Origin: Candidatus Cryptobacteroides onthequi
GTDB lineage: Bacteria > Bacteroidota > Bacteroidia > Bacteroidales > UBA932
Reading direction: 5' to 3'
Assembly (NCBI GenBank): GCA_018066125.1
Contig: JAGHSA010000044.1
Span: 1 to 32,398, forward strand
DNA length: 32,398 bases
This document shows, in pieces, positions 3,518-30,077 of this stretch. A model generated the notes under the pieces. That model did not search any database. It was not told where the DNA came from and saw only the letters and a program-made list of their open reading frames with translations. The translations under genes and the position numbers were made by a program. How positions within the stretch are numbered: position 1 is the first letter of the stretch; each line of letters opens with the position of its first letter.

Positions 3518-5248
3518 ATGAAGATACGGAAGCATATCACTGGGGCTGCTGCGTTGCTGGCCGCGGCTGCGGTCATGTCATGCAGCGCCGGTTCACCACG
3601 CGAAGTGCGTCTGGACGACTACCTGGAAGGGGCGCATACTGCCTGTGATACTGCCATGGCGATACGCCGCGCCGTCGAATACGCAGTATCATCCAAAGGT
3701 TCCACTCTTGTGCTGCCCGGCGGCACACTTGAGATAAGTGATGAATATGTGAAGGAGAAGTTCCTTTACATAAGCAATAACTACCCTTCATCAGACTGTG
3801 CCAAGAGGATAGCCTTTGACCTTTCCGGCGCAGACGGCCTGACCGTGGAAGGCAATGGTACTCTGCTTCTGTTCAGCGGTTATGTCTTACCCTTTCATGT
3901 CGAGGGGGCGAGGAATGTGACGGTCAGGAATCTCAAGGTGGATTTCAAAAGATCCTCCATCTCGGAAGGCGTGATTGCCGATGCGGGGGAGGGCTACTCT
4001 GACCTCTCATTCCCTCACGACTACAGAATCGTCTTCGAGAGCGGCGCTCTGGTGTTCATGGATGCCCGCGGGAACCGTTACCCTTACTGGTCTCTTCTTG
4101 AGTATGATCCCGTGAGGGAGGAGATTGCTCATTACGTCAGGGAACGCGCGGTCGGCTACAACGGCATCAGAGGGGAGAAACTTGATAACGGGCTTGTCCG
4201 CATATATCATCCCGGTTTTTCCGCAGCCAAGGGCAATGTCCTGGTGTTCGGGCCTCTCGAAAGGCGTGCTCCCGGATTCTTCCTGGAGTCCTCCAGCGGC
4301 ATCACCCTTGAAGATGTCACCATGTGGCAGTGTCCCGGCATGGGTGTGATTGCGCAGCGCTCGGAGAATATCCTGCTGGACAGGATGGTCGTGGAGCCTG
4401 CTCCGGGAAGCGGCAGGCTGACCAGTGTCGGCGCCGATGCCACGCATTTCATCAACTGCAGGGGACTGATCCATCTTCGCGGCTGCTCGTTCAGCTGCCA
4501 GTGGGATGACTGCACCAACATCCATGGCTGGTATTCGGTATGCCGTGAGAGGCTTTCTTCCAATTCCTTACTGTTGTGGTCCAATTACAGGACAGACTTC
4601 GCCGTGCCGGGCATGACCATGGAACTGGTCGATCACAACAATATGATGCCGTATGGCAAAGCTGTGGTGAGAGGTGTCGAGAAACTGAACTCGGATCTCT
4701 CCATCGTGACCTTTGCGGAGGATCTTCCGGAAAGCCTGAAGACAGGAGACGTGCTTGCTGACGCCGATGCCGATCCGGATGTCATCATAGAGGGGTGCAC
4801 CTTTGTCAAGAACCGTGCGCGTGGCATACTGATAGGCTCTGCCGGTAAAGTCGTGGTCAGAGACAGCTATTTCCACAGTGCGGGGTCTGCCATTCTCTTC
4901 GAGGGGGATGGGAACTTCTGGTTCGAAAGAGCCGGAGTCAGGGATGTGACCATCACGGGGAACAGTTTCGTGAATTGTCTCCATGGAAGCCGGGAATGGG
5001 GGAAGGCATGCATCGAAGTCCACAGCGGCATCCCGGACAGGGAGTCAAGTCTCTACCACAGCAATATTACAGTCACCGATAACCTTTTTGACGGTTTCGA
5101 CCCCCGCATCCTTGACATGTACTGCGTGGACGGACTTGTCTTTGAAGGCAATACCATACGTGTGAACAGCGATTATACGTCAGACGTTCCTGCTGATGCC
5201 GGGCATTTCGTCACGGAACATTGCAGGAACGTCAGGATATCGCAGTGA
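3518..5248 (+). CDS. GH110-type exo-alpha-galactosidase, lipoprotein
   Basis: A 576-aa lipoprotein (signal peptide with VMSC, Cys22) predicted to fold as a right-handed parallel beta-helix. GH110-like segments are visible: FLYISNNYP (82-90), a TVEGNGTLLLFSGYVLPF stretch, SVGADATHF (303-311), QWDDCTNIHGW (328-338), and RARGILIGSAGK followed by GSAILFEGD. As I recall, characterised GH110 enzymes use three aspartates spaced like Asp307, Asp330 and Asp331 here. GH110 enzymes remove terminal alpha-1,3-linked galactose, for example from blood-group B or linear alpha-Gal caps on host glycans, or from some algal galactans. It lies at the end of the sirtuin-SGNH run and converges with ettA, with 18 nt between. 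The family call is fairly firm; the linkage specificity is inferred. Confidence 0.85.
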   Translation: MKIRKHITGAAALLAAAAVMSCSAGSPREVRLDDYLEGAHTACDTAMAIRRAVEYAVSSKGSTLVLPGGTLEISDEYVKEKFLYISNNYPSSDCAKRIAFDLSGADGLTVEGNGTLLLFSGYVLPFHVEGARNVTVRNLKVDFKRSSISEGVIADAGEGYSDLSFPHDYRIVFESGALVFMDARGNRYPYWSLLEYDPVREEIAHYVRERAVGYNGIRGEKLDNGLVRIYHPGFSAAKGNVLVFGPLERRAPGFFLESSSGITLEDVTMWQCPGMGVIAQRSENILLDRMVVEPAPGSGRLTSVGADATHFINCRGLIHLRGCSFSCQWDDCTNIHGWYSVCRERLSSNSLLLWSNYRTDFAVPGMTMELVDHNNMMPYGKAVVRGVEKLNSDLSIVTFAEDLPESLKTGDVLADADADPDVIIEGCTFVKNRARGILIGSAGKVVVRDSYFHSAGSAILFEGDGNFWFERAGVRDVTITGNSFVNCLHGSREWGKACIEVHSGIPDRESSLYHSNITVTDNLFDGFDPRILDMYCVDGLVFEGNTIRVNSDYTSDVPADAGHFVTEHCRNVRISQ

Positions 5249-8882: not shown

Positions 8883-11072
8883 ATGAAAAGATATCTTGAA
8901 ACATTATTCTGTGCGGCTGTACTCTGCCTGCCGTGCCTTGCAGCGCCGGAGCAGGAAGAACTGCCGGCATTTCTGGACAGATCCAAGCCGGCTGAGGAAA
9001 GAGCCGCCGATATCGTCAGACGCCTGACAGTTGACGAAAAAGTCATGCTGATGATGTTTGAGTCTCCGGAGGTGGAGCGTCTCGGCATCCCTGCATACAA
9101 CTGGTGGAATGAAGCACTTCACGGAGTGGCCAGGAACGGCAATGCCACCGTCTATCCCATGCCGATAGGTATGGCAGCCTCTTTTGATGACCAGCTCCTC
9201 AGGGAGGTCTTCTCTTCAGTCAGTGATGAAGCTGTCATAAAGTACCGTATCGCCCGTCAGGAAGGCAGGGGCGCCGGATGGTACGAGGGTCTTTCATTCT
9301 GGACGCCGAATATCAACATCTTCCGTGACCCGAGATGGGGACGCGGTATGGAAACCTATGGCGAGGACCCTTATCTGACCTCAGTGATGGGCGGAGCCGT
9401 AGTCGATGGCCTCCAGGGCGCTGTGACGGACAGCACCATCAAGACTCTGGCATGCGCCAAGCACTTCGCTGTCCATTCTGGCCCGGAGAGCAGCCGCCAC
9501 AGCTTTGATGCGGTTGTTTCGGACAGGGATCTGTTCGAGACATATCTCCCGGCATTCAAACATCTCGTGACAGAGAACAAGGTAGAGCAGGTGATGTTTG
9601 CATACAACCGGTTCCAGGGTGTGCCTTGCGGCGCCAGTGAAAGGCTTCTCCGCGAGATACTGGTCGACAGCTGGGGATACAAGGGCATCATCCTGAGTGA
9701 CTGCTGGGCAGTAGACGATTTCTTCGAGGAGGGATGTCACGGATATTCCGAAGACGCGGCATCAGCGGCATCAGCGTCTGTCAAGGCGGGTGCGGATCTT
9801 GAGTGCGGAACCGCTTTCCGCCATCTCACAGAGGCTTTGGAAAGAGGACTCGTGACAGAGGATGTACTGGACAAGAGCCTGATAAAGCTCTTTTCTGCCC
9901 GTATCCGCATGGGCGACCTCGATGAGGGTATCAGGCAGCAGGATATTCCTGACAGCCTGCTGTGCGGCAGGGAACATGCTGCTCAGGCGCTCAGGATGGC
10001 ACGCGAGACCATGACACTTCTGATGAACAAGAATGGAGTCCTTCCTCTTGCAAAAGATGCAAAAGTGGCCTTGGTCGGCCCTAATGCCGATGCATGTGAG
10101 ATGCTCTGGGGCAATTACAACGGCTTTCCTGTCGATACGGTTACCTTTCTTGATGCGATGAGGGAGTCCTGCCCGGCTCTGGTATATCATCAGGGATGCG
10201 GTCTGGTGATGGATCTGAATGCCGATCCTGAGTCAGGGCAGGATGATTTATACCGTGTTTCTTCCAAGGCTGTCGATGATGTACTCGAGGCAGTAAGAGA
10301 CTGTGATGTAGTGGTATTTGCCGGCGGCATCTCTCCATCCCTGGAAGGCGAGGAAATGAATGTCGAGATCCCCGGATTCGCAGGAGGAGACAGGACGTCG
10401 ATAGAACTTCCGCAGGTACAGAGAGAGCTCATCAAGGCCATTCACGATGCCGGCAAGAAAGTCGTGCTTGTCAACTTCTCTGGAAGTGCCATCGGACTTG
10501 TCCCTGAGACTGAGAACTGCGATGCCATCCTCCAGGCGTGGTATCCGGGACAGGAGGGCGGCAAGGCAGTCACAGATGTCCTTTATGGCCGCTACAACCC
10601 TTCAGGAAAGCTCCCTCTGACATTCTACAAGTCAGTTGACCAGCTTCCTGACTTTGAGAATTACGATATGGCCGGACATACATACCGCTATTTCAGGGGA
10701 GAGCCTCTGTTCCGTTTCGGCTATGGACAGAGTTACACCACATTCCGTTTCGGCAAGCTGAGATTGCGCCGCCACAAGGCCGTGATCAAGATCAGGAATA
10801 CCGGCACCGTGGACGGTGAAGAAGTGGTTCAGCTCTATGTGAGAAATCCATTGGATACAGACGGTCCGTCGCTCACCCTCAGAGGATTCAAGCGTGTAAG
10901 CGTCCCTGCCGGGAAGACTGTAAAAGTGGAGTTCCCGCTCTCATGGCGGACATTCGAGTGGTGGAGCAGGGAAAACAACAGGATGGAATCAGTCTCAGGA
11001 AAGTATGAGATCCTGGTCGGCAACAGCTCAGACCTCAGAGATCTCAAGGTCCGCAGATACCGTTTCATATAA
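8883..11072 (+). CDS. GH3 glycoside hydrolase, probable beta-xylosidase or beta-glucosidase
   Basis: A 729-aa exported enzyme with an N-terminal signal peptide (cleavage near residue 21) that removes beta-linked sugars from non-reducing ends. The order is the GH3 TIM barrel, then the alpha/beta sandwich, then a C-terminal fibronectin III-like domain from about residue 640. The NWWNEALHGVAR motif, TPNINIFRDPRWGRG, and the KHF around 193-195 are visible. The nucleophile is Asp273 in the SDCWA motif. The NEALHG and SDCWA types are those of the xylosidase-like branch, so xylosides are the best guess. No PA14 insertion is seen. It follows the exporter gene and precedes tsaE by 12 nt. Confidence 0.92.
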   Translation: MKRYLETLFCAAVLCLPCLAAPEQEELPAFLDRSKPAEERAADIVRRLTVDEKVMLMMFESPEVERLGIPAYNWWNEALHGVARNGNATVYPMPIGMAASFDDQLLREVFSSVSDEAVIKYRIARQEGRGAGWYEGLSFWTPNINIFRDPRWGRGMETYGEDPYLTSVMGGAVVDGLQGAVTDSTIKTLACAKHFAVHSGPESSRHSFDAVVSDRDLFETYLPAFKHLVTENKVEQVMFAYNRFQGVPCGASERLLREILVDSWGYKGIILSDCWAVDDFFEEGCHGYSEDAASAASASVKAGADLECGTAFRHLTEALERGLVTEDVLDKSLIKLFSARIRMGDLDEGIRQQDIPDSLLCGREHAAQALRMARETMTLLMNKNGVLPLAKDAKVALVGPNADACEMLWGNYNGFPVDTVTFLDAMRESCPALVYHQGCGLVMDLNADPESGQDDLYRVSSKAVDDVLEAVRDCDVVVFAGGISPSLEGEEMNVEIPGFAGGDRTSIELPQVQRELIKAIHDAGKKVVLVNFSGSAIGLVPETENCDAILQAWYPGQEGGKAVTDVLYGRYNPSGKLPLTFYKSVDQLPDFENYDMAGHTYRYFRGEPLFRFGYGQSYTTFRFGKLRLRRHKAVIKIRNTGTVDGEEVVQLYVRNPLDTDGPSLTLRGFKRVSVPAGKTVKVEFPLSWRTFEWWSRENNRMESVSGKYEILVGNSSDLRDLKVRRYRFI

Positions 11073-11084
11073 CCGCGTCCAGTC

Positions 11085-11510
11085 ATGAAACATCAGATCA
11101 CCATCAAGGATCTCTCCGAGATCGATGCTGCTGCAAAGCAGTTCCTCGATCAGATACAGGGCCGCAGCCTGGTCGCCTTCTATGCGCCCATGGGGGCGGG
11201 AAAGACGACATTCACCACAGCGCTCTGCCGCCAGCTGGGAGTCGGCGAGGATGCTGTCAGCTCCCCGACATTCGCGATTGTCAACGAGTACAGGACATCC
11301 TCGGGAGAGCCGGTCTTCCACTTTGACTTCTATCGCATAGACAGGATTGCAGAAGCTCTGGACATAGGTTTCTACGACTACATCGACAGTGGATGCCTCT
11401 GCATCATGGAGTGGCCGGAAAACATTGAAGAGATCATCCCCGAAGAGACTCTCAGGGTGCATATCACCGTCAATCCGGACAACTCCCGTTCTGTCACCTG
11501 GGAGGATTAG
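11085..11510 (+). CDS. tsaE: TsaE, ATPase for tRNA t6A37 biosynthesis
   Basis: TsaE drives the TsaBDE complex that puts threonylcarbamoyl on A37 of ANN-decoding tRNAs, in the cytosol. The 141-aa protein has Walker A APMGAGKTT (34-42), the family SSPTFAIVNEY stretch, HFDFYRI and a C-terminal EWPENI, all typical. It lies 12 nt after GH3, so it is probably carried on that transcript. Its stop overlaps the stop of the convergent lipoprotein gene by 4 nt. Confidence 0.95.
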   Translation: MKHQITIKDLSEIDAAAKQFLDQIQGRSLVAFYAPMGAGKTTFTTALCRQLGVGEDAVSSPTFAIVNEYRTSSGEPVFHFDFYRIDRIAEALDIGFYDYIDSGCLCIMEWPENIEEIIPEETLRVHITVNPDNSRSVTWED

Positions 11511-12733
11511 TTCCCTGTGGTGACAGCCGTGAGAAAACCATTCAGATCGAGTTCATCACAAGCCCCGTCTTTCCAAATGGCGGGGCTTTTCTTTCCCCCT
11601 GTATCCGAGAGTGCCAGTACCGGCCCGTCGCCTGTCCAGCAGAGGCATTGCGGCGTCATGATGCACCAGTCTCCCTGAATCGGGCTGGTCCTTCCGCCGA
11701 ACGTGGTGCTCAGGACCTTTCCGGAACTGGTCTTGAGGTAGTCGAGTTTGCCCTCCATGTATCTGAATGACCTGCAGTCATTGGAGATGCGCGTGATAAG
11801 TCCGTCTTCATCCCAGAATCCGGTCATGCCGGAGGTGTAGCCGAATGATCTGTATTCACCCACGATGAATATCCTGTCCTCCCAGGCACTCAGCCGGTAG
11901 TCATTGGACGCTGCAGCCACAAGGCTTCCGCTGAGGTCCGACGGACCGCCGCTGCTTATCACGACCGGCGCCCTGCCGTCAGACATCTTTGCGACGGCGT
12001 AGTGGTCTCTCCACATGGTTCTCATGTCATAGACAGCTGCGACTCCATCGCTGTTCAGGACAATGTCTTCATCACCGTCCACGAAATGCCATGTCCTTTT
12101 CCCATCCTTCTCTGTAAAATACGAGAAGCATGGTGTGCCGTTGTCGTCATACAGGGCGCCGGATCTGGCATAAGCCTTGTCAGACCAGCTTCCCAGAAGC
12201 TCGCCGTCCCCGCTAGAGAAGATGATCTTTCCATTGCTCCGCAATGCAAAGCCGCGGCTGTATCTGTTCTGTCCAAGGGTCAGGATCTTTCCGTCTCTGA
12301 CAAGCATCCCTCGTATTGTCTCGTCTCCCTTGTAACGGAGTATCTCCTTCCCGTCTCTCTGGATGACCGTCTGCAGCCCGTCCGAATGCTCGGTGTACAG
12401 GTGGCCGCCGATGATATGGTGCCTGTCGGGAGCGGTTTCCGCATGCCCTTCCTCCCCGGCGGCCACGCGGCATATGATTTCACCGTCCCGCATGAGGAAG
12501 ATGTTGCAGGGGACTTTTCCGTAGGCGGTGTCCCTTCTCCAGTCATACCCTTCGGGGAATGACACGCCTGATACATACAGATGCTTTCCGGCGGGGGCAG
12601 CGCCGAGGTCTTCTTCGATTGTCGTCATTTCTGTGTCTGACCGGCTGGGACCGTTTTCGAGTGGGTCGCATCCGTGGATGGCGATCATGATGGCGGGCAG
12701 TGCCAGGAGCAGGGTTCTGTTGGAAGTCTTCAT
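11507..12733 (-). CDS. Lipoprotein of unknown function, beta-propeller-like repeats
   Basis: I do not recognise a named family. The ATG at 12731-12733 is preferred to the one at 12799, because it places a standard lipoprotein signal at the N terminus (IHGC, Cys22) and lies 12 nt from a good promoter element. The 408-aa protein contains repeated short motifs of the type RDGE, RDGKEI, RDGKIL and SNGKII, separated by about 35-50 residues. This is the pattern of blades in beta-propeller or WG-type repeat proteins. No catalytic motif is visible. A binding or sensing role at the outer membrane is possible but unproven. It is a single gene, divergent from the cytochrome operon. Confidence 0.75.
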   Translation of the reverse strand: MKTSNRTLLLALPAIMIAIHGCDPLENGPSRSDTEMTTIEEDLGAAPAGKHLYVSGVSFPEGYDWRRDTAYGKVPCNIFLMRDGEIICRVAAGEEGHAETAPDRHHIIGGHLYTEHSDGLQTVIQRDGKEILRYKGDETIRGMLVRDGKILTLGQNRYSRGFALRSNGKIIFSSGDGELLGSWSDKAYARSGALYDDNGTPCFSYFTEKDGKRTWHFVDGDEDIVLNSDGVAAVYDMRTMWRDHYAVAKMSDGRAPVVISSGGPSDLSGSLVAAASNDYRLSAWEDRIFIVGEYRSFGYTSGMTGFWDEDGLITRISNDCRSFRYMEGKLDYLKTSSGKVLSTTFGGRTSPIQGDWCIMTPQCLCWTGDGPVLALSDTGGKKSPAIWKDGACDELDLNGFLTAVTTGN

Positions 12734-12745
12734 GTTTTTTTCTGC

Positions 12746-12753
12746 CAAAGATA
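12746..12753 (-). promoter_or_regulatory. -7 element for the lipoprotein gene
   Basis: The minus strand reads TATCTTTG, a perfect -7 element, 12 nt before the chosen ATG. No TTTG is seen at the right distance. It supports the start at 12733 over the upstream ATG, which would lie outside the transcript. Confidence 0.6.
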
Positions 12754-12853
12754 CTCTTCCGCAACTCTTCAGGGCATAAGAAACATCATGGGACGTCACA
12801 AATTGAAGATTGTTATCAAAGTTTATGATTCTTATGGTCTTGGGCGGTTAATG

Positions 12854-12885
12854 TTTGTTTCTCCGATGAAAATTCCGTAGATTTG
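12854..12885 (+). promoter_or_regulatory. Promoter of the cytochrome-FGE operon
   Basis: TTTG (12854-12857), a 20-nt spacer and TAGATTTG (12878-12885) form one of the best full Bacteroidota promoters in the window, 26 nt before the start codon. The remaining divergent spacer (about 12760-12850) is AT-richer than its surroundings and could hold an operator, but no clear inverted repeat was found. Confidence 0.75.
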
Positions 12886-12911
12886 TTTGATTAGCAAAAT
12901 TTCGCGATCAG

Positions 12912-14426
12912 ATGTCTCGTAACAGTAAATTTTTCCTCATAGCCCTCGGCGGTTTCATCGCAGGTCTGGCGATTGCCATCCTTCTTGGACAGGCGGTGCA
13001 CAAGACCTCCACAAACGAGTATTGCATGTCATGCCATCATCACCCTCATGCGGAGACGTCTTGGAAGCAGTCCGTGCATTACAACAATGAGAGCGGTGTC
13101 ATGACGGATTGTGCCGCATGCCATCTTCCTCCAGAGGGGACCATGGACTACTATCTGGCGAAAGCCAAGACGGGCATGAAGGATGTGTGGGTTTCACTCA
13201 CAAAGGATCCGGAGGAAATCGACTGGGACTCCAAGGGCAATCTCGAGCACGCAGTCAAGATAGTCTACAACGAGTCCTGCAAGGCATGTCATGTGAACCT
13301 CTTCCCAAGCGGCATCAGCGATGAGGGCATCATCGCCCACATGTATTACGAGGACAATGAAGAGAAGCTGGATCTCCAGTGCATCAGCTGCCACCTTGAC
13401 GCAGGCCATTTCGATCCTGACTACAGGCATTCGCAGATGCAGGGAGTTCCGGTGACATCCGACGCCGAGCTTTATACCTCTCTGGCGGAAGTCAATGAAT
13501 TCAAGAGTTTCGACGAGACGATACCGGGTACAGCCGCATCCATCAGGATGATTGCCATCCCGGGAGGCACATTCACCATGGGAAGCCCTGAGAAAGAGCC
13601 GTTCCATCAGGATGAGGAGCTCCAGAAGAAAGTGACGGTGTCACGTTTCTTCATGGCGGAGACCGAAATCACATGGGATCAGTACTGGGCATTCTATGGC
13701 GAGACCCAGTCGGAGGGTCATACCCCTCCTGAGAAGGTCTATGCCAACAACGAGCGCGAGGATGTGGACGCCGTCAGCGGACCGACTGCGCCGTTCGGTT
13801 CTCCTGACCAGGGATGGGGCATGGGATCCCGTCCAGCCATCACCATGACCTGGTATGCCGCAAAGACATTCTGCCAGTGGCTCTCTCTCAAGACTGGCAG
13901 GACCTATCGTCTGCCTACAGAGGCTGAGTGGGAGTACGCAGCCCGCGGAGGTACCGAGACCCCTTACTTCTTCGAGGGAAATCCGAAGAAGTTCTCCGGA
14001 GAAGGCTTCCTCAGAAGCATTTTCAAGGCAGATACCACAGGTATCGCCAGCTATGCCGTCTATTCTGCAAACAGCAACAACCGCACTCAGGAGCCGTCTA
14101 TGGTTTCCGCAAATCCGTTCGGCCTGAAGAACATGGTCGGCAACGTCATGGAATACTGCTCTGACTGGTATTCCGAGAAAGCATATTCTTCTCTCAAGGA
14201 TGGTGCAGTTGACCCTAAGGGACCGGAAAGCGGTGAGGAGCATGTCGTCAGGGGCGGCTCATACATGGATGACGCGTCCAGACTCAGAAGTGCTGCCAGA
14301 GGATGTACCCATCATGACGCATGGCTCAAGACCGACCCTCAGAATCCGAAGAGCATCTGGTGGTATTCCGACATGAAGGGTATCGGCTTCAGAGTGGTAT
14401 GCGAAGTCCCAGAGGGAATACAATAG
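12912..14426 (+). CDS. Tetraheme NapC/NrfH-type cytochrome c fused to an FGE/SUMF1-fold domain
   Basis: A 504-aa fusion. Residues 7-26 form one membrane anchor, after which everything should be periplasmic. Four heme-binding CxxCH motifs follow at Cys38-His42, Cys67-His71, Cys123-His127 and Cys157-His161, the count and layout of NrfH/NapC quinol dehydrogenases that pass electrons between menaquinol and a periplasmic partner. From about residue 212 to 500 lies an FGE-sulfatase (SUMF1) fold: IPGGTFTMGS (216-225), RLPTEAEWEYAARGG (333-347), NVMEYCSDWY (411-420), VVRGGSY (445-451) and IGFRVV (491-496). The copper-binding catalytic cysteines of true FGE are absent: the segment after RGGSY reads MDDASRLR. 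The domain is thus probably structural or substrate-binding. It is first gene of the operon, 40 nt before the Gfo/Idh gene. Confidence 0.9.
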   Translation: MSRNSKFFLIALGGFIAGLAIAILLGQAVHKTSTNEYCMSCHHHPHAETSWKQSVHYNNESGVMTDCAACHLPPEGTMDYYLAKAKTGMKDVWVSLTKDPEEIDWDSKGNLEHAVKIVYNESCKACHVNLFPSGISDEGIIAHMYYEDNEEKLDLQCISCHLDAGHFDPDYRHSQMQGVPVTSDAELYTSLAEVNEFKSFDETIPGTAASIRMIAIPGGTFTMGSPEKEPFHQDEELQKKVTVSRFFMAETEITWDQYWAFYGETQSEGHTPPEKVYANNEREDVDAVSGPTAPFGSPDQGWGMGSRPAITMTWYAAKTFCQWLSLKTGRTYRLPTEAEWEYAARGGTETPYFFEGNPKKFSGEGFLRSIFKADTTGIASYAVYSANSNNRTQEPSMVSANPFGLKNMVGNVMEYCSDWYSEKAYSSLKDGAVDPKGPESGEEHVVRGGSYMDDASRLRSAARGCTHHDAWLKTDPQNPKSIWWYSDMKGIGFRVVCEVPEGIQ

Positions 14427-14466
14427 ACACAGACAATAAACGAAATAACCTTAAAAATCAAAAGAA

Positions 14467-15807
14467 ATGAGTGACAGCAAAATCGGAAGAAGAGAATTTC
14501 TCTCTCGTTCAGCACTTATCGGTGCGGCTGGTATCGTAGGCATATCTGCATGCAGCAACAAAGAAAAACTTGTTCCTCTCCGTCAGCCGGGTGAGTATTA
14601 TGTTCCGGAACTTCCGGACAAGGCTATCGACGGCCGCGAACTCAAGGTCGGTGTCGTAGGCTGCGGCGGACGTGGTTCAGGTGCCATCATCAACCTTCTC
14701 GATGCTGCTGACGGTATCGTTGTGACAGCACTCGGCGACACATTCGCAGACAGGATCGACAACCTCCGCAAGCGTCTCAAGGAGAACAAGAACATCGAGG
14801 TTCCGGATGAGAACTGCTTCGTGGGATTCGATGCATACAAGAAGGTCATCGACATGGTTGACATCGTCATCCTCACAACTCCTCCTGTATTCCGTCCTGA
14901 CCAGTTCAAATATGCTGTAGAAAAGGGCGTTCACTCATTCCTCGAGAAGCCTATCGCTGTGGATCCAAAGGGCTACCGCACATGTATCGCCGCTGCAAAG
15001 CAGGCTCAGTCGAAGGGTCTTGTGGTGGTTACCGGTGTTCAGCGTCACCATCAGAGACCATACGTACAGGCAAACCAGAAGATCCAGGAAGGTCTCATCG
15101 GTACCATCGTGGGCGGAAGTTCATATTGGAACCAGAGCCAGCTCTGGTATCGCGAGCGTCAGAAGGAGTGGAGCGACATGGAGTGGATGATCCGCGACTG
15201 GGTCAACTGGACATGGCTCTCAGGCGACCATATTGTAGAACAGCATGTGCACAATATCGACATCTTCCTCTGGATGTCAGGTCTCACCCCTAAGGCTGCA
15301 AAGGCAACAGGTGCACGTCACCGCCGCGTGACAGGTGACCAGTACGATGAGTTCAGCGTCGACTTCGAGTTCGAGAACGGTGTTCATCTCCAGTCTATGT
15401 GCCGCCAGATCGATGGCTGCTCTGGTTCTGTACACGAGGAGATCAGAGGAACCAAGGGCTGGTGGACCAGTGAGGACCACAAGATCCGCGACTATCAGGG
15501 CAATATCCTCTGGGAGTATGACGAGGAGGCTGAGAAGGCTAAGTTCGAGCAGCACAATCCATACGTCCTTGAGCATGTTGATCTCGTGAACCTCATCCGC
15601 AAGGGTATCGCTCATGAGGAGGCTACCTACACCGCAGAGTCAACTCTCGCAGGTGTGCTCGGACGCGAGGCAGCATATACAGGACAGACAATCACATGGG
15701 AGGATATCAAGGCATCTTCACTTGACCTCATGCCGGAGAAGCTTGAGATCGGTCCTATGGATATGTCAAAGTACACTGTAAAGGTTCCAGGATCAGACAA
15801 GAAGTAA
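14467..15807 (+). CDS. Tat-exported Gfo/Idh/MocA-family oxidoreductase, putative lipoprotein
   Basis: A 446-aa NAD(P)-type sugar or cyclitol oxidoreductase. The N terminus carries a twin-arginine signal (GRREFL, Arg8-Arg9) and a hydrophobic stretch ending in a lipobox-like ISAC (Cys29). It should be exported folded, with its nucleotide bound, and perhaps lipid-anchored. The Rossmann motif VGVVGCGGRGSG lies around residues 61-72. The Gfo/Idh signature Glu160-Lys161-Pro162 is present, with an EQHVH segment (258-262) where the family has its catalytic histidine region. Zymomonas glucose-fructose oxidoreductase is a known periplasmic relative with non-dissociating NADP. It sits between a cytochrome and cytochrome-maturation genes, which suggests electron exchange with heme rather than free NAD(P)H; this is inference. 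The TIM-barrel gene starts 2 nt later. Confidence 0.9.
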   Translation: MSDSKIGRREFLSRSALIGAAGIVGISACSNKEKLVPLRQPGEYYVPELPDKAIDGRELKVGVVGCGGRGSGAIINLLDAADGIVVTALGDTFADRIDNLRKRLKENKNIEVPDENCFVGFDAYKKVIDMVDIVILTTPPVFRPDQFKYAVEKGVHSFLEKPIAVDPKGYRTCIAAAKQAQSKGLVVVTGVQRHHQRPYVQANQKIQEGLIGTIVGGSSYWNQSQLWYRERQKEWSDMEWMIRDWVNWTWLSGDHIVEQHVHNIDIFLWMSGLTPKAAKATGARHRRVTGDQYDEFSVDFEFENGVHLQSMCRQIDGCSGSVHEEIRGTKGWWTSEDHKIRDYQGNILWEYDEEAEKAKFEQHNPYVLEHVDLVNLIRKGIAHEEATYTAESTLAGVLGREAAYTGQTITWEDIKASSLDLMPEKLEIGPMDMSKYTVKVPGSDKK

Positions 15808-15809
15808 TT

Positions 15810-16718
15810 ATGGACAGAAGGTCATTCTTCAAGACTTCAATGATGGGAGCCGGTGCTCTTGCAATGGCATCCGGCCCCCTTGGACTTGTGACAGGATGTG
15901 CCGCTCCGGCACCTGCCAAGTCGCAGACCCCTCTCCATCTTTCTTTCCAGGTCGGCACCGCACTGGGCGAGACCCTCAAGGAGAAGATGGACTATATGGA
16001 ATCCCTTGGAATCGAAGGTTTTGAACCGGGAGGCCAGTACCTTCTCGAGCATTTCGACGAGATTGCCAACGAACTCAAGAACAGAGACATCAAGCTTTCT
16101 GCCATCTGCGCAGGTTTCGGTGGATTCATTCTCGCAGAGGACGAGCAGAAGCAGGTCTTCGATACCAGCATGCGTGAAATCATCGAGGCAGCCGGAAAGC
16201 TCGGCTCTACAGGTGTGATCATGGTCCCTGCATTCAACCGTCAGGAGCCATGCAAGCCTCATACACAGGCTACACGCGACTATCTCTGCGAGCAGCTCCA
16301 TGAGCTTGGTGAGTTTGCGCTCAAGTGCGGCACCACTGTCATCCTTGAGCCTCTCAACCGTCGTGAGGCGTTCTATCTCCGCCTTGTATCTGATGCGGCA
16401 GCCATCTGCCGTGATTCCCAGAGCAAGGGTGTGAAGTGCATGGGTGATTTCTGGCACATGCAGGAGGAGTCATCCGACTATGCTGCATTCATGTCGGCAG
16501 GAACTGAATACCTCCAGCATGTCCACATCGCCAGCCGCGGCAACCGCAAGATGCCGGGTGAGGACGGTGCTCTCGACAACTATGTTGACGGAATGCGTGC
16601 CCTCAAGGAGATGGGTTACGACAAATATATCAGTTTCGAGTGCGGCTCTGTGGGTGACCGTGCAGTCACCACTCCTGCAGCGGTAGAGCTTCTCCGTGCT
16701 CAGTGGGAGCAGGCATGA
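15810..16718 (+). CDS. Tat-exported TIM-barrel protein, sugar phosphate isomerase/epimerase family
   Basis: A 302-aa xylose-isomerase-like TIM barrel. The N terminus has a Tat motif (DRRSFFK, Arg3-Arg4) and a lipobox VTGC (Cys30), so it should share the compartment of the Gfo/Idh protein. Putative divalent-metal ligands are Glu180 (VILEPLN), Asp213 (MGDFWHM), His239 (HVHIAS) and Glu277 (ISFECG), all conserved in type. The family includes epimerases, dehydratases and, in Bacteroides, enzymes acting on 3-keto-glycosides. A phosphate substrate is unlikely outside the cytosol. It is tightly coupled to the genes on either side: 2 nt after the Gfo/Idh stop, and a 4-nt ATGA overlap with the ResB-like gene. 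The reaction is unknown. Confidence 0.9.
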   Translation: MDRRSFFKTSMMGAGALAMASGPLGLVTGCAAPAPAKSQTPLHLSFQVGTALGETLKEKMDYMESLGIEGFEPGGQYLLEHFDEIANELKNRDIKLSAICAGFGGFILAEDEQKQVFDTSMREIIEAAGKLGSTGVIMVPAFNRQEPCKPHTQATRDYLCEQLHELGEFALKCGTTVILEPLNRREAFYLRLVSDAAAICRDSQSKGVKCMGDFWHMQEESSDYAAFMSAGTEYLQHVHIASRGNRKMPGEDGALDNYVDGMRALKEMGYDKYISFECGSVGDRAVTTPAAVELLRAQWEQA

Positions 16719-17740
16719 TAAGCTACCCGTGGAGTGCATTATGCCTCTTGGCGTACCTGTACGCCATAGTGGCAGTCTACGTGATGTCACTTTCACGCAG
16801 TTCACTCAAGACCTTGTATTCAGGCAAGACATGTTCCATCACTGTCGCGGCAGCGACGGTGATGGTTCTTGTTTTCGGATTTACAGGTATTTTCCGCGGG
16901 GTCATCTACTATGCCGTCATGCTGGCCCTTATGGGTTCGATGGGGCTTGCCCTGGCTGCGGATATCCATCACATACGCAGCCGCAGGCTGGCGCCGGTCA
17001 TGGCTCATCTGGGTGTGTTTGTCGTGATGGCCGCCGGCGTATTCGGCTACGCGGACAAACAGTCAGCCAAGGTGACTGCCTATCTGGGACACCCGGAGTC
17101 TGTCGGCATGGATGCTGAAGGCAGAAGAGTGGACCTGCCATTCATGATCACCCTCAATTCATTCGATATCGAGAGATATCCTGTCCGATACAGCATTACA
17201 GCACCTGACGGTACTGTGACTGCTGCAGAGACTTCCAGAGACTGGAAGGTGACTGAACTTGAAAAGATAGACATGGCTGTCATGAAGCCGGGTTCTGACA
17301 GCTGGGAGGAGCTCAGGCACGTGGGAGCCGAGCCGGCATCGCTTGTCAAGGTGGAAGGAACAGACGGCCGGTCCATCACCGGATGGGTGGCTTGCGGCAG
17401 TTTCATGTTCGCCCCGTCTTTCCTTGAACTTCCTGACGGAAGCGTGCTTTCGATGAATACCCCTGCGCCGCAGAGCTATGACAGCAAGGTCAGTGTGACT
17501 GACGTCAAGGGCAGGAAGAAGTCATTTGAACTGTCCGTCAATCATCCCGCAAGACTGGGTGCATGGCGGATATATCAGGCCGGCTATGATATCAAGAAGG
17601 GCAGATGGAGTGAGTACAGCGTGCTTCAGTGTGTACGTGACCCATGGTACCCTGCCATTGCGGCGGGACTCTGGATCATACTGGCATCTGCGGTGGTGAT
17701 GATGTTCACGGCCGGTCGAGGCCGCAAAAATGAGAAGTGA
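16715..17740 (+). CDS. ResB-like cytochrome c biogenesis protein
   Basis: The ATG at 16715 overlaps the upstream stop (ATGA) and gives 341 aa; an in-frame ATG 12 nt earlier is less likely. Four or five membrane helices are visible: three or four in the first 115 residues and one near the C terminus. Between them lies a periplasmic domain of about 200 residues. The stretch NHPARLGAWRIYQAGYD is typical of ResB/Ccs1. These proteins work with CcsA in the system II machinery that moves heme outward and ligates it to CxxCH motifs. The immediate client is most likely the tetraheme cytochrome encoded first in this operon, the only CxxCH protein in the window. Confidence 0.85.
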   Translation: MISYPWSALCLLAYLYAIVAVYVMSLSRSSLKTLYSGKTCSITVAAATVMVLVFGFTGIFRGVIYYAVMLALMGSMGLALAADIHHIRSRRLAPVMAHLGVFVVMAAGVFGYADKQSAKVTAYLGHPESVGMDAEGRRVDLPFMITLNSFDIERYPVRYSITAPDGTVTAAETSRDWKVTELEKIDMAVMKPGSDSWEELRHVGAEPASLVKVEGTDGRSITGWVACGSFMFAPSFLELPDGSVLSMNTPAPQSYDSKVSVTDVKGRKKSFELSVNHPARLGAWRIYQAGYDIKKGRWSEYSVLQCVRDPWYPAIAAGLWIILASAVVMMFTAGRGRKNEK

Positions 17741-17741
17741 T

Positions 17742-18509
17742 ATGAGTTGGGATCTATTCATCTACTTCGCGGTAGCGGCTGCGCTGCTCTGGGTGGCAGG
17801 CGCAGTGACCGCCTATTTCCGCAAGGACACCGCCCCTGCCTTTTTCCTGTCTCTCGCCGGCACTTCGGTGCTGCTCGTGTTCATCGTGCTGATGTGGGTG
17901 TCCATGAAGCGTCCCCCACTCCGCACCATGGGCGAGACCAGGCTGTGGTACTCATTTTTCCTGTCGGTTGCAGGTGCTGTCATCTACCGCAAATGGGGCT
18001 TCGACTGGATACTTTCCTACGGCACCATGATGGCGGTGATGTTCCTCTGCATCAACATCTTCAAGCCGGAGATACATACGGCCGAGCTCATGCCGGCGCT
18101 CCGGAGCGTGTGGTTTGTGCCTCATGTTACTGTGTATATGTTCTCATATGCCCTTCTTGGCGCCGCAATGATTCTATCTTTCGTATTTGCGGCAAGGCCG
18201 CATCATGACGCCGACCTGACCCGCTGCGACATCCTTGTCCGCATAGGATGGGCGTTCCTATCCATGGGCATGGCCATGGGCGCCTTGTGGGCCAAGGACG
18301 CCTGGGGTGACTGGTGGACATGGGATCCGAAAGAGACATGGGCGCTTGCCACATGGCTGGGATACCTTTTCTACCTCCATGCGCGCCCGCTTATCAGGGA
18401 CAGGCGTGTGGCCTTCGGCGTGCTTTTCTTCTGTTTCCTGCTTCTGTGCATGACCTGGTTCGGAGTCAATTACCTCCCGTCTGCCCAGATGAGCATCCAC
18501 ACCTATTGA
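17742..18509 (+). CDS. ccsA: CcsA-type cytochrome c heme lyase/exporter
   Basis: A 255-aa multi-spanning membrane protein with the tryptophan-rich heme-handling WWD motif WGDWWTWDPKETWAL, the hallmark of the CcsA/CcmC/CcmF family. Histidines near membrane edges (VPHVT, YLHARP) fit the heme-ligand pattern. The ATG at 17742, one base after the ResB-like stop, is preferred to the ATG at 17730 that would overlap it. Together with the ResB-like protein it forms a complete system II pair. In Bacteroides, as I recall, this pair follows nrfHA; here it follows the cytochrome-FGE, Gfo/Idh and TIM-barrel genes. Confidence 0.92.
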   Translation: MSWDLFIYFAVAAALLWVAGAVTAYFRKDTAPAFFLSLAGTSVLLVFIVLMWVSMKRPPLRTMGETRLWYSFFLSVAGAVIYRKWGFDWILSYGTMMAVMFLCINIFKPEIHTAELMPALRSVWFVPHVTVYMFSYALLGAAMILSFVFAARPHHDADLTRCDILVRIGWAFLSMGMAMGALWAKDAWGDWWTWDPKETWALATWLGYLFYLHARPLIRDRRVAFGVLFFCFLLLCMTWFGVNYLPSAQMSIHTY

Positions 18510-18519
18510 CCTGATTTCC

Positions 18520-19494
18520 ATGAAAGCTGCATGTGTCTCTCTCGCCCTGGCGATATCAGTGATGTCCGTGTCCTGCTCCGTGAATGCTGCCGCTCCGGAG
18601 GATGACGGCATGACATCTCCCACCTTCACCATCCATCTCTACCCTCAGGGGCAGGATGTGGACATGGGGATAGTCGAGGATGGCGTAACGGTCACTCTCG
18701 GCCCTGGAGACTCCAATCAGATAGACACCACGGAGTTCTTCTGGGATGCCGACGGCAGTCTCAACAACGTCTCGGACAGTGCCAGAGTGGAGATATATCT
18801 CCCGGAGCGGCGCAACGGCCAGATGATTGTCGTATGCCCGGGCGGCGGCTATGCCGAACTGACCTACCGCGGCGAAGGTCTCTATGCCGCAAGGGAACTC
18901 ACCAGGCGCGGGTATTCTGTCGCGGTGCTCTGCTACAGGATGCCTGCCGGTCACCATATCATCCCGCTGACCGACGTGCAGAATGCATTCAGATACTGCC
19001 GCCGCCATGCGGCAGAATGGGGGATTCACAAGATCGGAGTCCTGGGAGGCTCTGCCGGAGGGCACCTGGCCGCCTCTGCATCCACTCTGTATGTGGATGA
19101 CATTACACGTCCGGACTATACCGTCCTTTTCTATCCTGCAATCAGCTCCACTGACGGCATGAGTACGTCAACCGCCCGCAGACTGACTGCCGGAGACCCG
19201 GAGCTCTTGGAACATTATTCTCTCGAGAAGAGAGTCACATCCGACACTCCTCCCGCAATCCTTTTCCACAGCCTCAATGACAAGACGACGGACCCTGAGC
19301 ACAGCATGCGCTATTGCAGGGCACTGAGGGCTGCCGGAGTCCATGCGGAACTCTATTGCTTCCCTGTGGGCGGCCACGGCTGGGCCTTCACCACGATGGA
19401 AACTGCCGGGAAAGACAAACTCGGAGAATACCGTGCCGTATCCTCCGAGCTGCTGTATCGTTTCCTCGAGTCCCAGAAAGACTGGGAAGACTGA
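18520..19494 (+). CDS. Secreted alpha/beta-hydrolase, probable carbohydrate esterase
   Basis: A 324-aa probable lipoprotein (SVSC, Cys19). The alpha/beta-hydrolase core has the oxyanion segment CPGGGYAEL (106-114), nucleophile Ser178 in GGSAGGH, an acid candidate Asp254 or Asp258 in NDKTTDPEH, and His286 in GGHGWAF. The motif set resembles the esterase/lipase group that includes Bacteroidota acetyl-xylan and feruloyl esterases. It starts 10 nt after ccsA without a visible promoter, so it is probably the last gene of the cytochrome operon. That would put a deacylating enzyme beside the sugar redox enzymes. It converges with the NlpC/P60 gene, with 1 nt between stops. Confidence 0.85.
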   Translation: MKAACVSLALAISVMSVSCSVNAAAPEDDGMTSPTFTIHLYPQGQDVDMGIVEDGVTVTLGPGDSNQIDTTEFFWDADGSLNNVSDSARVEIYLPERRNGQMIVVCPGGGYAELTYRGEGLYAARELTRRGYSVAVLCYRMPAGHHIIPLTDVQNAFRYCRRHAAEWGIHKIGVLGGSAGGHLAASASTLYVDDITRPDYTVLFYPAISSTDGMSTSTARRLTAGDPELLEHYSLEKRVTSDTPPAILFHSLNDKTTDPEHSMRYCRALRAAGVHAELYCFPVGGHGWAFTTMETAGKDKLGEYRAVSSELLYRFLESQKDWED

Positions 19495-28160: not shown

Positions 28161-30077
28161 TTACTTCTTCTTGTAGAATCTCACGTAGTCGATGTCCATC
28201 TCGACAGGGAGCTCTGCAGGATCCACTTCGCCGACCCAGTTTCCACCGAGCTGTGCAGAGAGGATCATGTAGAATGGGTGGTCTGCAAATGGGAACTGTC
28301 CTTCCACTGCAGGAGTCTCTCTCTTGTAGCAGAGCCACTCTTCGCCATTGATGTAGAACTTCACTGCGTCCTGCTCTATGACGGCTGCATATACATTGTA
28401 CTCGTCAGGGTTGATTCCAGGGATATCCTGTGACTTGACTCTCTCGGCCCTGCCGCTGTCGTGGATGTACTTGGTGTGGATGGTCTGATAGAACTTCTTA
28501 TCATGGTTGAGATGCTCCATGATGTCGATTTCACCGCCTTCCGGCCATCTCATGTCTGCGTCAGGCATGAGCCAGATGGCAGGCCAGAATCCCTGGCCGC
28601 AGCTGTACTTCGCTCTTACCTCGAACATGCCGAGCTGCATCGACTGTTTGCCCTTGCTGAGCACGCCTCCGGTGATGAATGGCCTCTGGTCATCCACGCC
28701 TTCAGGTGTGACTATGCCCTTGAGTACGAGATTGCCGTTCTCGACACTTACGAGACCGTCTGCGAGTGACATGTGCCTGCACCAGTCTGGTGTGCCTTCC
28801 TCCACTCTTGACCATGCTGAGGTGTCGAGTGTGTTTCCTTCGAACTCATCGCTCCATTCGAGCTTCCAGTCCTTGTAGTCGATCTTAGGTGTGACGCTTG
28901 CGGTTCCCATGACCTCGCGTACTGCCTCGAGGTAGCCGAATCCTGTCACCTCGTCAGGAAGGAGGTACGAACCCTCCACCCACTCGTTCCATGCGTTGAT
29001 GGTGATGAGCTTAGGCTGGTCAGGATGTGCATCTGCATAGTCCTTTGCCTTCTGGAGATACTCCTTGAATACCTCAGGGGAATGGTTGAATCTTGTGACA
29101 TGCTCTGCGCCTTTCTTAGGGAAGCGCGGTGTGTCGTCCCATCCGATAGAGACGCAAGGGAAGTTTGGAATTCCGAAGGTTCCATCCCACTGCTCACGTA
29201 TCTTGACGGAATTCTCGCACTGTTGGCGGTAGTCGCAGTCGAAGCCGCCCATGTTGTAGAATGCCACAGCGTCGATGCCTATGCTCTTGATCTTGGCAGC
29301 CTCATGCTCCTTGAATTCGTCAGTGACCCAAGGACCGCCGCCGAAGTTCTCCATGAGGTAGAGGTCAGGGTATCCCGCCTTCTTGACTTCCTCTCTGAAG
29401 TAGTTGATGGCCTCTCCTGCCTGACCGAGTCCGCCGAATCCTCTTGCCAGATTGTCCATGCTGAAGATGCTCATGACAGGGCGTCCGTCGAATTTCACAT
29501 AGTTCGGCTGGCAGAAGTACTGCTTGATGATGCGGTCGACAATCTTCTTGAACTGATCCCATGTGAGGTCAGGGTCGAAGAGGATGTCCTCATTGTCGCC
29601 ATAGAGATGGTAGTTCCAGTAGTTCCACTTCACATCGTGGTTTGCCCACATGATGTAGAAGTTCATGTCCCGGCAGCTGTTTGCCTTGAGGAAACCGTCA
29701 TTGAGCGCTCCCTCGAGGTACTGATAGTCCTTGAACCAGTACCAGTCATATACGAAGGTATTGATACCGTACTCCCTGGCGGTCTTGATCCATCTGTCGA
29801 CTACTACAGGGTCGTCGTCCATCTCGTAGCCCCAGAGAGGGCGCTTCGGCTGGTAGTGGCCCTCGAAGCGTGGGTCTCCCTGCTTGATGACCTCCCACTC
29901 GCCGATACCTTCAGGCCACAGATATGCATGGCCGAGTGAATCGTCATGGCAGGATGGCCAGATGTAGGCGGCCACCAGATAATCGTCAGACCTTTTCTCC
30001 TGAGGTCCCTTTGCGCTGGTGCATGCGACAGCCATGGCCATGGCTGCGAGGCATGCTGTGATGATCAGTCTTTTCAT
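28161..30077 (-). CDS. Two-domain glycosidase lipoprotein: WbsX/GH99-like plus GH16
   Basis: A 638-aa lipoprotein (AVAC, Cys19). Residues about 33-390 match the GH99-like/WbsX family: AAYIWPSCHDD, the GINTFVYDWYWF segment (104-115), FDGRPVMSIF, and INAWNEWVEGSYLLPD (360-375) followed by GYLEAV. Residues about 402-638 are a GH16 beta-jelly-roll with the retaining catalytic motif GEIDIMEH: nucleophile Glu516, Asp518 and acid/base Glu521. GH16 enzymes cut beta-1,3 or beta-1,4 glucans and galactans; the substrate is not fixed by the motif. The two halves suggest an endo-acting enzyme paired with a second endo or glycan-modifying activity. It overlaps the upstream OPT gene by one base (TAATG). Confidence 0.88.
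   Translation of the reverse strand: MKRLIITACLAAMAMAVACTSAKGPQEKRSDDYLVAAYIWPSCHDDSLGHAYLWPEGIGEWEVIKQGDPRFEGHYQPKRPLWGYEMDDDPVVVDRWIKTAREYGINTFVYDWYWFKDYQYLEGALNDGFLKANSCRDMNFYIMWANHDVKWNYWNYHLYGDNEDILFDPDLTWDQFKKIVDRIIKQYFCQPNYVKFDGRPVMSIFSMDNLARGFGGLGQAGEAINYFREEVKKAGYPDLYLMENFGGGPWVTDEFKEHEAAKIKSIGIDAVAFYNMGGFDCDYRQQCENSVKIREQWDGTFGIPNFPCVSIGWDDTPRFPKKGAEHVTRFNHSPEVFKEYLQKAKDYADAHPDQPKLITINAWNEWVEGSYLLPDEVTGFGYLEAVREVMGTASVTPKIDYKDWKLEWSDEFEGNTLDTSAWSRVEEGTPDWCRHMSLADGLVSVENGNLVLKGIVTPEGVDDQRPFITGGVLSKGKQSMQLGMFEVRAKYSCGQGFWPAIWLMPDADMRWPEGGEIDIMEHLNHDKKFYQTIHTKYIHDSGRAERVKSQDIPGINPDEYNVYAAVIEQDAVKFYINGEEWLCYKRETPAVEGQFPFADHPFYMILSAQLGGNWVGEVDPAELPVEMDIDYVRFYKKK

Follow-up and report, generated by a model that had tools for sequence, protein, structure and literature searches.

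We analysed a window of 32,398 nucleotides from Candidatus Cryptobacteroides onthequi (contig JAGHSA010000044.1), in which five closely spaced genes occupy the + strand at 12912-18509 behind one promoter-like site. They encode a tetraheme cytochrome fused to a domain resembling formylglycine-generating enzymes (FGE), here called cytFGE, followed by a Gfo/Idh oxidoreductase (Gfo), a TIM-barrel protein (TIM), and the ResB- and CcsA-like proteins. An earlier note, made from the sequence alone, had described this locus as an nrf-like operon in which exported sugar enzymes replace nitrite reductase; profile searches recovered the domains, and all five genes lie on the + strand where the note had put them. 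We found that the durable unit is cytFGE with Gfo, with exceptions, and that TIM, resB and ccsA come and go. The link of this module to 3-keto-sugar metabolism is well supported and stronger than the earlier note knew. We give about an even chance to the reading that an exported, NAD-bound glycoside dehydrogenase delivers its electrons to menaquinone through cytFGE, with cytFGE and the lipobox-bearing Gfo as the core of a periplasmic 3-keto-glycoside redox module.

Association of cytFGE with Gfo and PF06439

The functional link was seen with PF06439, the 3-keto-disaccharide hydrolase family. In a family sample of 149 genomes, cytFGE (scored present below an E value of 1e-60; a contig-end fragment in genome G036 was counted negative) was found in 28, all of which also encoded Gfo. 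Gfo was present in 31 of the 149 genomes, 30 of these 31 had TIM, and no Gfo-negative genome had TIM at the cut-offs used. PF06439 was encoded by all 31 Gfo-positive genomes versus 37 of 118 Gfo-negative ones, and by 28/28 cytFGE-positive genomes. A control for cytochrome-bearing genomes, nrfA, showed no such link (5/31 Gfo-positive versus 19/118 negative). In an order sample of 393 Bacteroidales, cytFGE occurred in 51 genomes from 21 families, and PF06439 was present in all 51 versus 77 of 342 cytFGE-negative genomes. The PF06439-positive genomes carried a mean of 7.3 PF06439 copies with cytFGE versus 2.9 without it, both lower bounds, as eight candidates were scored per genome. Fisher values for these co-occurrences ignore kinship.

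Physical linkage to PF06439 was observed at some loci. A PF06439 relative lay within the fetched flanks at 16 of 140 loci (137 distinct cytFGE sequences, three pairs of loci sharing one); these 16 include a syntenic group and are thus not independent. At one locus (L188), the genes on one strand read cytFGE, Gfo, second Gfo, ThuA, TIM barrel, PF06439, third Gfo. Another (L181), outside the order, reads transporter, Gfo, TIM–PF06439 fusion, TIM barrel, cytFGE, clade Gfo (see below) and second Gfo; its fusion gene (L181:6583-8064), two genes upstream of cytFGE, encodes a single protein with both an AP_endonuc_2 TIM barrel and a PF06439 domain. No PF06439 gene lies beside the module in the window. 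Elsewhere in the same genome, unlinked to the cytochrome, a Tat-type Gfo/Idh protein (477 aa) is followed by a two-domain PF06439 protein (L212:7895-10778, on contig G000:C27), which to judge from their sequences form a classic 3-keto-glycoside pair.

The adjacency of cytFGE and Gfo extended well beyond the window. We compared neighbourhoods by tblastn, with resB and ccsA queried by the window proteins, such that divergent copies may escape. In the named loci, the best 80 of 264 cytFGE relatives in named genomes and a set biased to near relatives, Gfo was directly downstream of cytFGE in 80/80 (gap 24-226 bases, median 50) and TIM was present in 75, the other five ending at a contig edge within 1.7 kb. 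Both resB and ccsA were found in 48 of these 80 and resB alone in 3 more; 23 of the 80, each with at least 1.7 kb of contig left, showed no match to either beside cytFGE. We also examined 40 wider loci, comprising 39 of the 58 order-sample cytFGE places (window excepted; 19 places were left out) and one locus from the phylum sample outside the order (G493). Here Gfo lay within 350 bases of cytFGE in 37/40, TIM was linked in 12/40, and tblastn gave a resB or ccsA match beside cytFGE in 0/40. Among 30 short loci (L132-L161), which overlap the genomes of the wider loci, 26 had Gfo downstream on the same strand, two (L137 and L139) had it on the opposite strand only, and two (L135 and L145) had none within the 1.5 kb examined. 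A last set of 20 family loci was selected largely for Gfo missing nearby; Gfo was found in 8, and the 12 without it all came from one genus, g20. The co-occurrence of cytFGE with Gfo and TIM in the family and the adjacency of Gfo, both anticipated by the earlier note, therefore stand, and the expected linkage to resB and ccsA is not general.

Components of the module

The cytFGE gene (12912..14426, +) encodes 504 residues with an N-terminal hydrophobic helix, a tetraheme NapC/NrfH-like domain (residues 5-170, 12924..13421; PF03264 Cytochrom_NNT, 2.3e-28) and an FGE-sulfatase-like domain (residues 213-468, 13548..14315; PF03781, 7.9e-44). Its CxxCH motifs, at residues 38, 67, 123 and 157, were all kept in 128/128 distinct homologues. 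K84, G88 and D91, at least 97% conserved, align with the K, G and D of the NrfH structure 2j7a at positions that we take to be the quinol site of NrfH. The Cytochrom_NNT match, the four CxxCH motifs behind an N-terminal helix and the quinol-site Lys and Asp place cytFGE in the NapC/NrfH family. By contrast with NrfH of the same genome and 2j7a, which have CxxCHxM at the first heme motif, all 128 homologues have CxxCHxH, with a His two places after CxxCH; the Met at this place is presumably the heme 1 ligand in NrfH. We rejected cytFGE as NrfH proper, given its TIGR03153 score of 58.6 bits versus a cut-off of 134.2, the lack of a linked nrfA, and His rather than Met at heme 1. The predicted structure of cytFGE has a helix at 3-31 and is of low confidence (pLDDT 58.6), too poor for a fold search.

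The closest solved chains to the FGE-like domain are formylglycine-generating enzymes, and the domain is strongly conserved across the 128 homologues. However, no Cys is conserved among the homologues between R447 and R463, and we take the catalytic cysteine pair of FGE to sit after the RGGS motif. As no conserved pair was seen there, we rejected the domain as a formylglycine generator. It is probably a docking or sugar-binding platform. Among the papers listed by full-text literature searches, none described a cytochrome–FGE fusion.

Gfo (446 aa; 14467..15807, +) was assigned by Pfam and has the Rossmann domain and C-terminal domain, the EKP Lys (K161) and the catalytic His (H262) of Gfo/Idh/MocA proteins; its NAD-site and catalytic residues are intact. 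Directly downstream of cytFGE, 109 Gfo proteins were called, the window's included, and 108 of them fall in one clade. This clade, grouped by identity, has 113 rows (112 distinct) and a support of 0.91; its members are at least 43% identical to the window Gfo, whereas 20 other Gfo proteins, including the one beside PF06439 in the same genome, are 17-24% identical. The earlier note had proposed a Tat signal and a lipobox-like cysteine on Gfo, and the clade bears this out: R8, R or K at position 9, the lipobox Cys29, D91, K161 and H262 are each found in 113/113. Gfo is predicted to be exported on the basis of its Tat-type start and lipobox, and TatC is encoded in the same genome. An export signal on Gfo together with PF06439 in the genome is a context shared with periplasmic glycoside 3-dehydrogenases. 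The predicted structure (pLDDT 86.4) has the Gfo/Idh fold. In a fold search, no entry matched it clearly better than oxidoreductive glycosidases and DgpA, and the rows were so nearly tied that the nearest Gfo/Idh substrate class was not distinguishable.

TIM (302 aa; 15810..16718, +) is an epimerase/isomerase-like TIM barrel (PF01261, AP_endonuc_2, 3.1e-29) with a Tat-type start. Residues 38-302 match 3kws, a Parabacteroides distasonis protein, at 6.4e-105, and the protein matches 6wn6, named '3-keto-D-glucoside 4-epimerase', at 6.6e-25. Conservation is at least 97% at E180, D213, H239 and E277 (86 rows, 84 distinct), which are aligned in 6wn6; we take E/D/H/E to be the metal residues of 3-keto-glucoside epimerases, and the window TIM has this YcjR-type site. 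The export signal and lipobox-like cysteine claimed for TIM were likewise found, with R3 and F6 at least 97% conserved and a Cys within residues 16-45 in 69/86 rows.

Locus layout and the nrf comparison

The last two genes of the module encode a ResB-like cytochrome c maturation protein (16715..17740, +; PF05140, 5.9e-14, residues 254-298 only) and a CcsA-like heme lyase of 259 aa (17730..18509, +; PF01578, 4.8e-29). For resB, to judge from the sequence, the ATG at 16715, which overlaps the stop codon of tim, is a more likely start than the GTG at 16703. On another contig of the same genome, NrfH, NrfA, ResB and CcsA are encoded in a row (G000:C54:3811-8056), and the window CcsA and ResB are 51% and 33% identical to the copies there. 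The window operon is thus a second one, in addition to a genuine nrf operon. The nrf gene order that the earlier note invoked is present in this row and also in Bacteroides thetaiotaomicron, where the available part of PMC10434189 describes BT1414-1418 as nrfAH with ccsA and ccsB; nrfA is indeed absent from the window locus.

As in the Bacteroidales nrf operon, a NapC/NrfH-type tetraheme cytochrome comes first, a periplasmic partner next and, in some lineages, resB–ccsA last. Unlike that operon, the module has no nrfA, its cytochrome carries an FGE-like domain, its partner is a Gfo/Idh protein, and in the family sample its presence is not linked to that of nrfA. The nrf-like layout, which the earlier note took for the essence of the locus, did not hold up as a definition of the module: resB with ccsA accompany it in 48/80 named and 0/40 wider loci, and TIM is linked in only 12 of the latter. 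The nrf-like frame is a local feature.

A match to TTTG-N20-TAnnTTTG, which we take to be the Bacteroidetes promoter consensus, lies at 12854..12885 (+), 26 bases 5' of the cytFGE ATG; its first base is also the start of the stretch singled out by the earlier note. Two such matches were found in the window versus 0.10 expected. Among the 78 named loci having 250 upstream bases, 19 had the motif within 250 nt upstream of cytFGE, versus 0.5% in mononucleotide shuffles. A sigma-70 scan gave matches at chance level. Ten bases past ccsA begins a gene for a BD-FAE/acetylxylan-esterase-like hydrolase (18520..19494, +), which the earlier note does not mention and which is possibly in one transcript with the module here; it had no tblastn match at 1e-8 in the 80 named loci and is not conserved beside the module.

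Other features of the window include a 430 aa open reading frame with a lipoprotein-like start (11507-12799, -), of which the part at 11507-12730 matched nothing in Pfam or NCBIfam at 0.001. Further upstream are a GLAA-B/beta-helix protein (3518-5248), presumably GH110-like, and a GH3 enzyme (8883-11072), and at 28161-30077 (-) a WbsX domain and a GH16 domain are joined in one protein. Several named loci (L037:11063-11554 and relatives) have a DUF6016 gene (cluster c5) between Gfo and TIM, and in L037:14536-15516 and relatives ccsA is followed by a GH43 gene (cluster c7). Near cytFGE–Gfo, L175, L179, L184, L193 and L201 encode a GT2 glycosyltransferase and a large TPR-repeat protein. At five g20 loci (L112, L114, L117, L120 and L123), cytFGE stands behind a short-chain-dehydrogenase-like gene (c35), and in four of them a small GtrA-like gene (c63) precedes it as well, while Gfo and TIM are found on other contigs; the names for c35 and c63 are our reading of the sequences.

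Proposed electron transfer and rival explanations

Every component of the module comes from a known family; the novelty lies in the combination. Among the papers listed by full-text literature searches, none linked an exported Gfo/Idh glycoside dehydrogenase to a NapC/NrfH cytochrome. In E. coli, YcjS and YcjR are a Gfo dehydrogenase and a TIM-barrel 3-keto-glucoside epimerase that are cytosolic and use free NAD. The window has a similar pair, 6wn6 being the nearest named relative of TIM, but both of its proteins carry export signals. Glucose-fructose oxidoreductase of Zymomonas is redox-neutral, has no cytochrome and is not a lipoprotein, unlike the lipobox-bearing, cytochrome-paired Gfo studied here. 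The Caulobacter lactose 3-dehydrogenase LacABC is an FAD enzyme with a cytochrome subunit, whereas the window enzyme is Gfo/Idh and its cytochrome of the NapC/NrfH type. In its available part, PMC9007349 places LacABC near PF06439 in Caulobacter and others and ties it to periplasmic glycoside C3 oxidation, the activity that we propose for the window's Gfo. The same part names B. thetaiotaomicron BT2157 a 3-ketotrehalose hydrolase, and the available part of PMC11300592 describes BT2158 as a periplasmic glycoside 3-dehydrogenase. Like BT2156-BT2160, the window's genome encodes an exported Gfo/Idh, a TIM-barrel isomerase and PF06439 hydrolases; unlike it, the module has no adjoining PF06439 gene and adds a tetraheme cytochrome. 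A further difference is the low identity (17-24%) of the window Gfo clade to the 20 other Gfo proteins compared, among them the one beside PF06439 in the same genome. According to the available part of PMC11501099, deletion of BT2157 or BT2158 caused no growth defect on the raffinose family, so the B. thetaiotaomicron pathway is not needed for every substrate.

In the reading that we favour, Gfo, exported with NAD bound, would oxidise glycosides or sugars, probably at C3. TIM would epimerise the keto product, and PF06439 enzymes encoded elsewhere in the genome would cleave 3-keto-glycosides. Electrons on the bound NADH would reach menaquinone by way of the four cytFGE hemes, and ResB and CcsA would mature the cytochrome in some lineages. 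Sugar oxidation would in this way feed an anaerobic respiration such as fumarate reduction. What we infer here is electron transfer as such, the direction it takes and the part played by the FGE-like domain. A more specific proposal is that the lipid-anchored, NAD-bound Gfo/Idh passes electrons directly and without flavin to the tetraheme cytochrome and menaquinone, as a respiratory glycoside 3-dehydrogenase in which the FGE-like domain is a docking site or relay. We hold this only tentatively; if true, extracytoplasmic glycan oxidation feeds anaerobic respiration.

Several observations weigh against this picture. The weak step is the flavin-free passage of a hydride's electrons from NADH to hemes, which take up one electron at a time. 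The Gfo model shows an ordinary Gfo/Idh fold in which no further cofactor (flavin) domain was seen, and heme would therefore have to be reduced by NADH with no flavin in between; we know of no precedent for this. Quinol oxidation is the usual role of NapC/NrfH proteins, which favours flow in the opposite direction. A lipobox unique to the clade was ruled out, as two or more of the 20 other Gfo proteins carry one. Of the 128 PF06439-positive genomes in the order sample, 77 lack cytFGE, some of them with 8-9 copies, and the co-occurrence may be due in part to a saccharolytic lifestyle. The pairing also has exceptions. In L163 and L164, other Gfo genes intervene and the clade Gfo is 3.0 and 4.1 kb off; the Gfo directly downstream of cytFGE in the former (L163_6) is outside the clade; L176, a second cytFGE copy, has no Gfo nearby, and L145, mentioned above, likewise counts here. 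Of the 12 cytFGE loci fetched from genus g20, six of which extend 3.7 kb or more downstream, none shows Gfo, and these genomes encode Gfo on other contigs. Unlinked genes, which the earlier note would have taken as refutation, thus do occur in this genus, and linkage is the rule elsewhere (80/80 and 37/40).

Should flavin-free transfer prove impossible, cytFGE more likely acts on a product through its own FGE-like domain, or only resets the enzyme's cofactor. One possible explanation along these lines, which we consider somewhat unlikely, is that the 3-keto link is real but cytFGE and Gfo exchange no electrons. Gfo would then be redox-neutral on bound NAD, like the oxidoreductive glycosidases, and the FGE-like domain would be the catalytic or substrate-binding part of a quinone-linked enzyme acting on a product such as the 3-keto sugar. 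The fold matches of Gfo to oxidoreductive glycosidases and DgpA, its lack of a flavin domain, the strong conservation of the FGE-like domain in 128 homologues and the separation of cytFGE from Gfo in g20 all fit such an arrangement, as does the presence among the matches of PvdO, an FGE-fold protein named dihydropyoverdine dehydrogenase. However, the FGE-like domain showed no recognisable cofactor motif, and the tight cytFGE–Gfo pairing, with the gene set spread across 21 families, suggests a direct partnership.

Electrons could also flow in reverse, with cytFGE oxidising menaquinol as NrfH and NapC do and Gfo reducing a periplasmic keto-sugar, either as an electron sink or for 3-keto salvage. 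This would follow the usual direction of the family and would suit those members of the lineage in which resB and ccsA complete an nrf-like order, and Gfo/Idh enzymes are reversible. Yet the midpoint potential of NAD lies below that of menaquinone, making menaquinol a poor donor unless binding shifts it, and PF06439 hydrolases act on oxidised glycosides; we regard reverse flow as quite unlikely. More improbable still is a role in modifying lipid-linked sugars or the surface glycans of the cell itself, by periplasmic oxidation and epimerisation like that of DprE1 in mycobacteria, rather than in degrading food glycosides. The GT2 and TPR-bearing proteins clustered near cytFGE in 5/40 wider loci point this way, as do dTDP-sugar and sugar-nucleotide epimerase genes downstream in some rumen-type loci (84 of 126 downstream genes were scanned), but the glycosyltransferase pair is found in few loci only, and the PF06439, ThuA and GH43 contexts argue against it. 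Finally, TIM, resB, ccsA and the esterase vary between lineages, as chance or hitch-hiking neighbours without joint function might, but the adjacency of cytFGE and Gfo and their co-occurrence across families speak so strongly against a chance neighbourhood that we consider it ruled out.

Gut bacteria are known to have exported Gfo/Idh glycoside dehydrogenases, and to our knowledge the way in which their bound NAD is re-oxidised outside the cytoplasm is not settled. Seen in two genome samples only alongside PF06439 (28/28 and 51/51 genomes), cytFGE is a concrete candidate for this re-oxidation. If the favoured reading, with cytFGE as the electron outlet of Gfo, is true, periplasmic glycan degradation would be tied to anaerobic respiration in these bacteria, and the cytochrome–FGE fusion would have a role.

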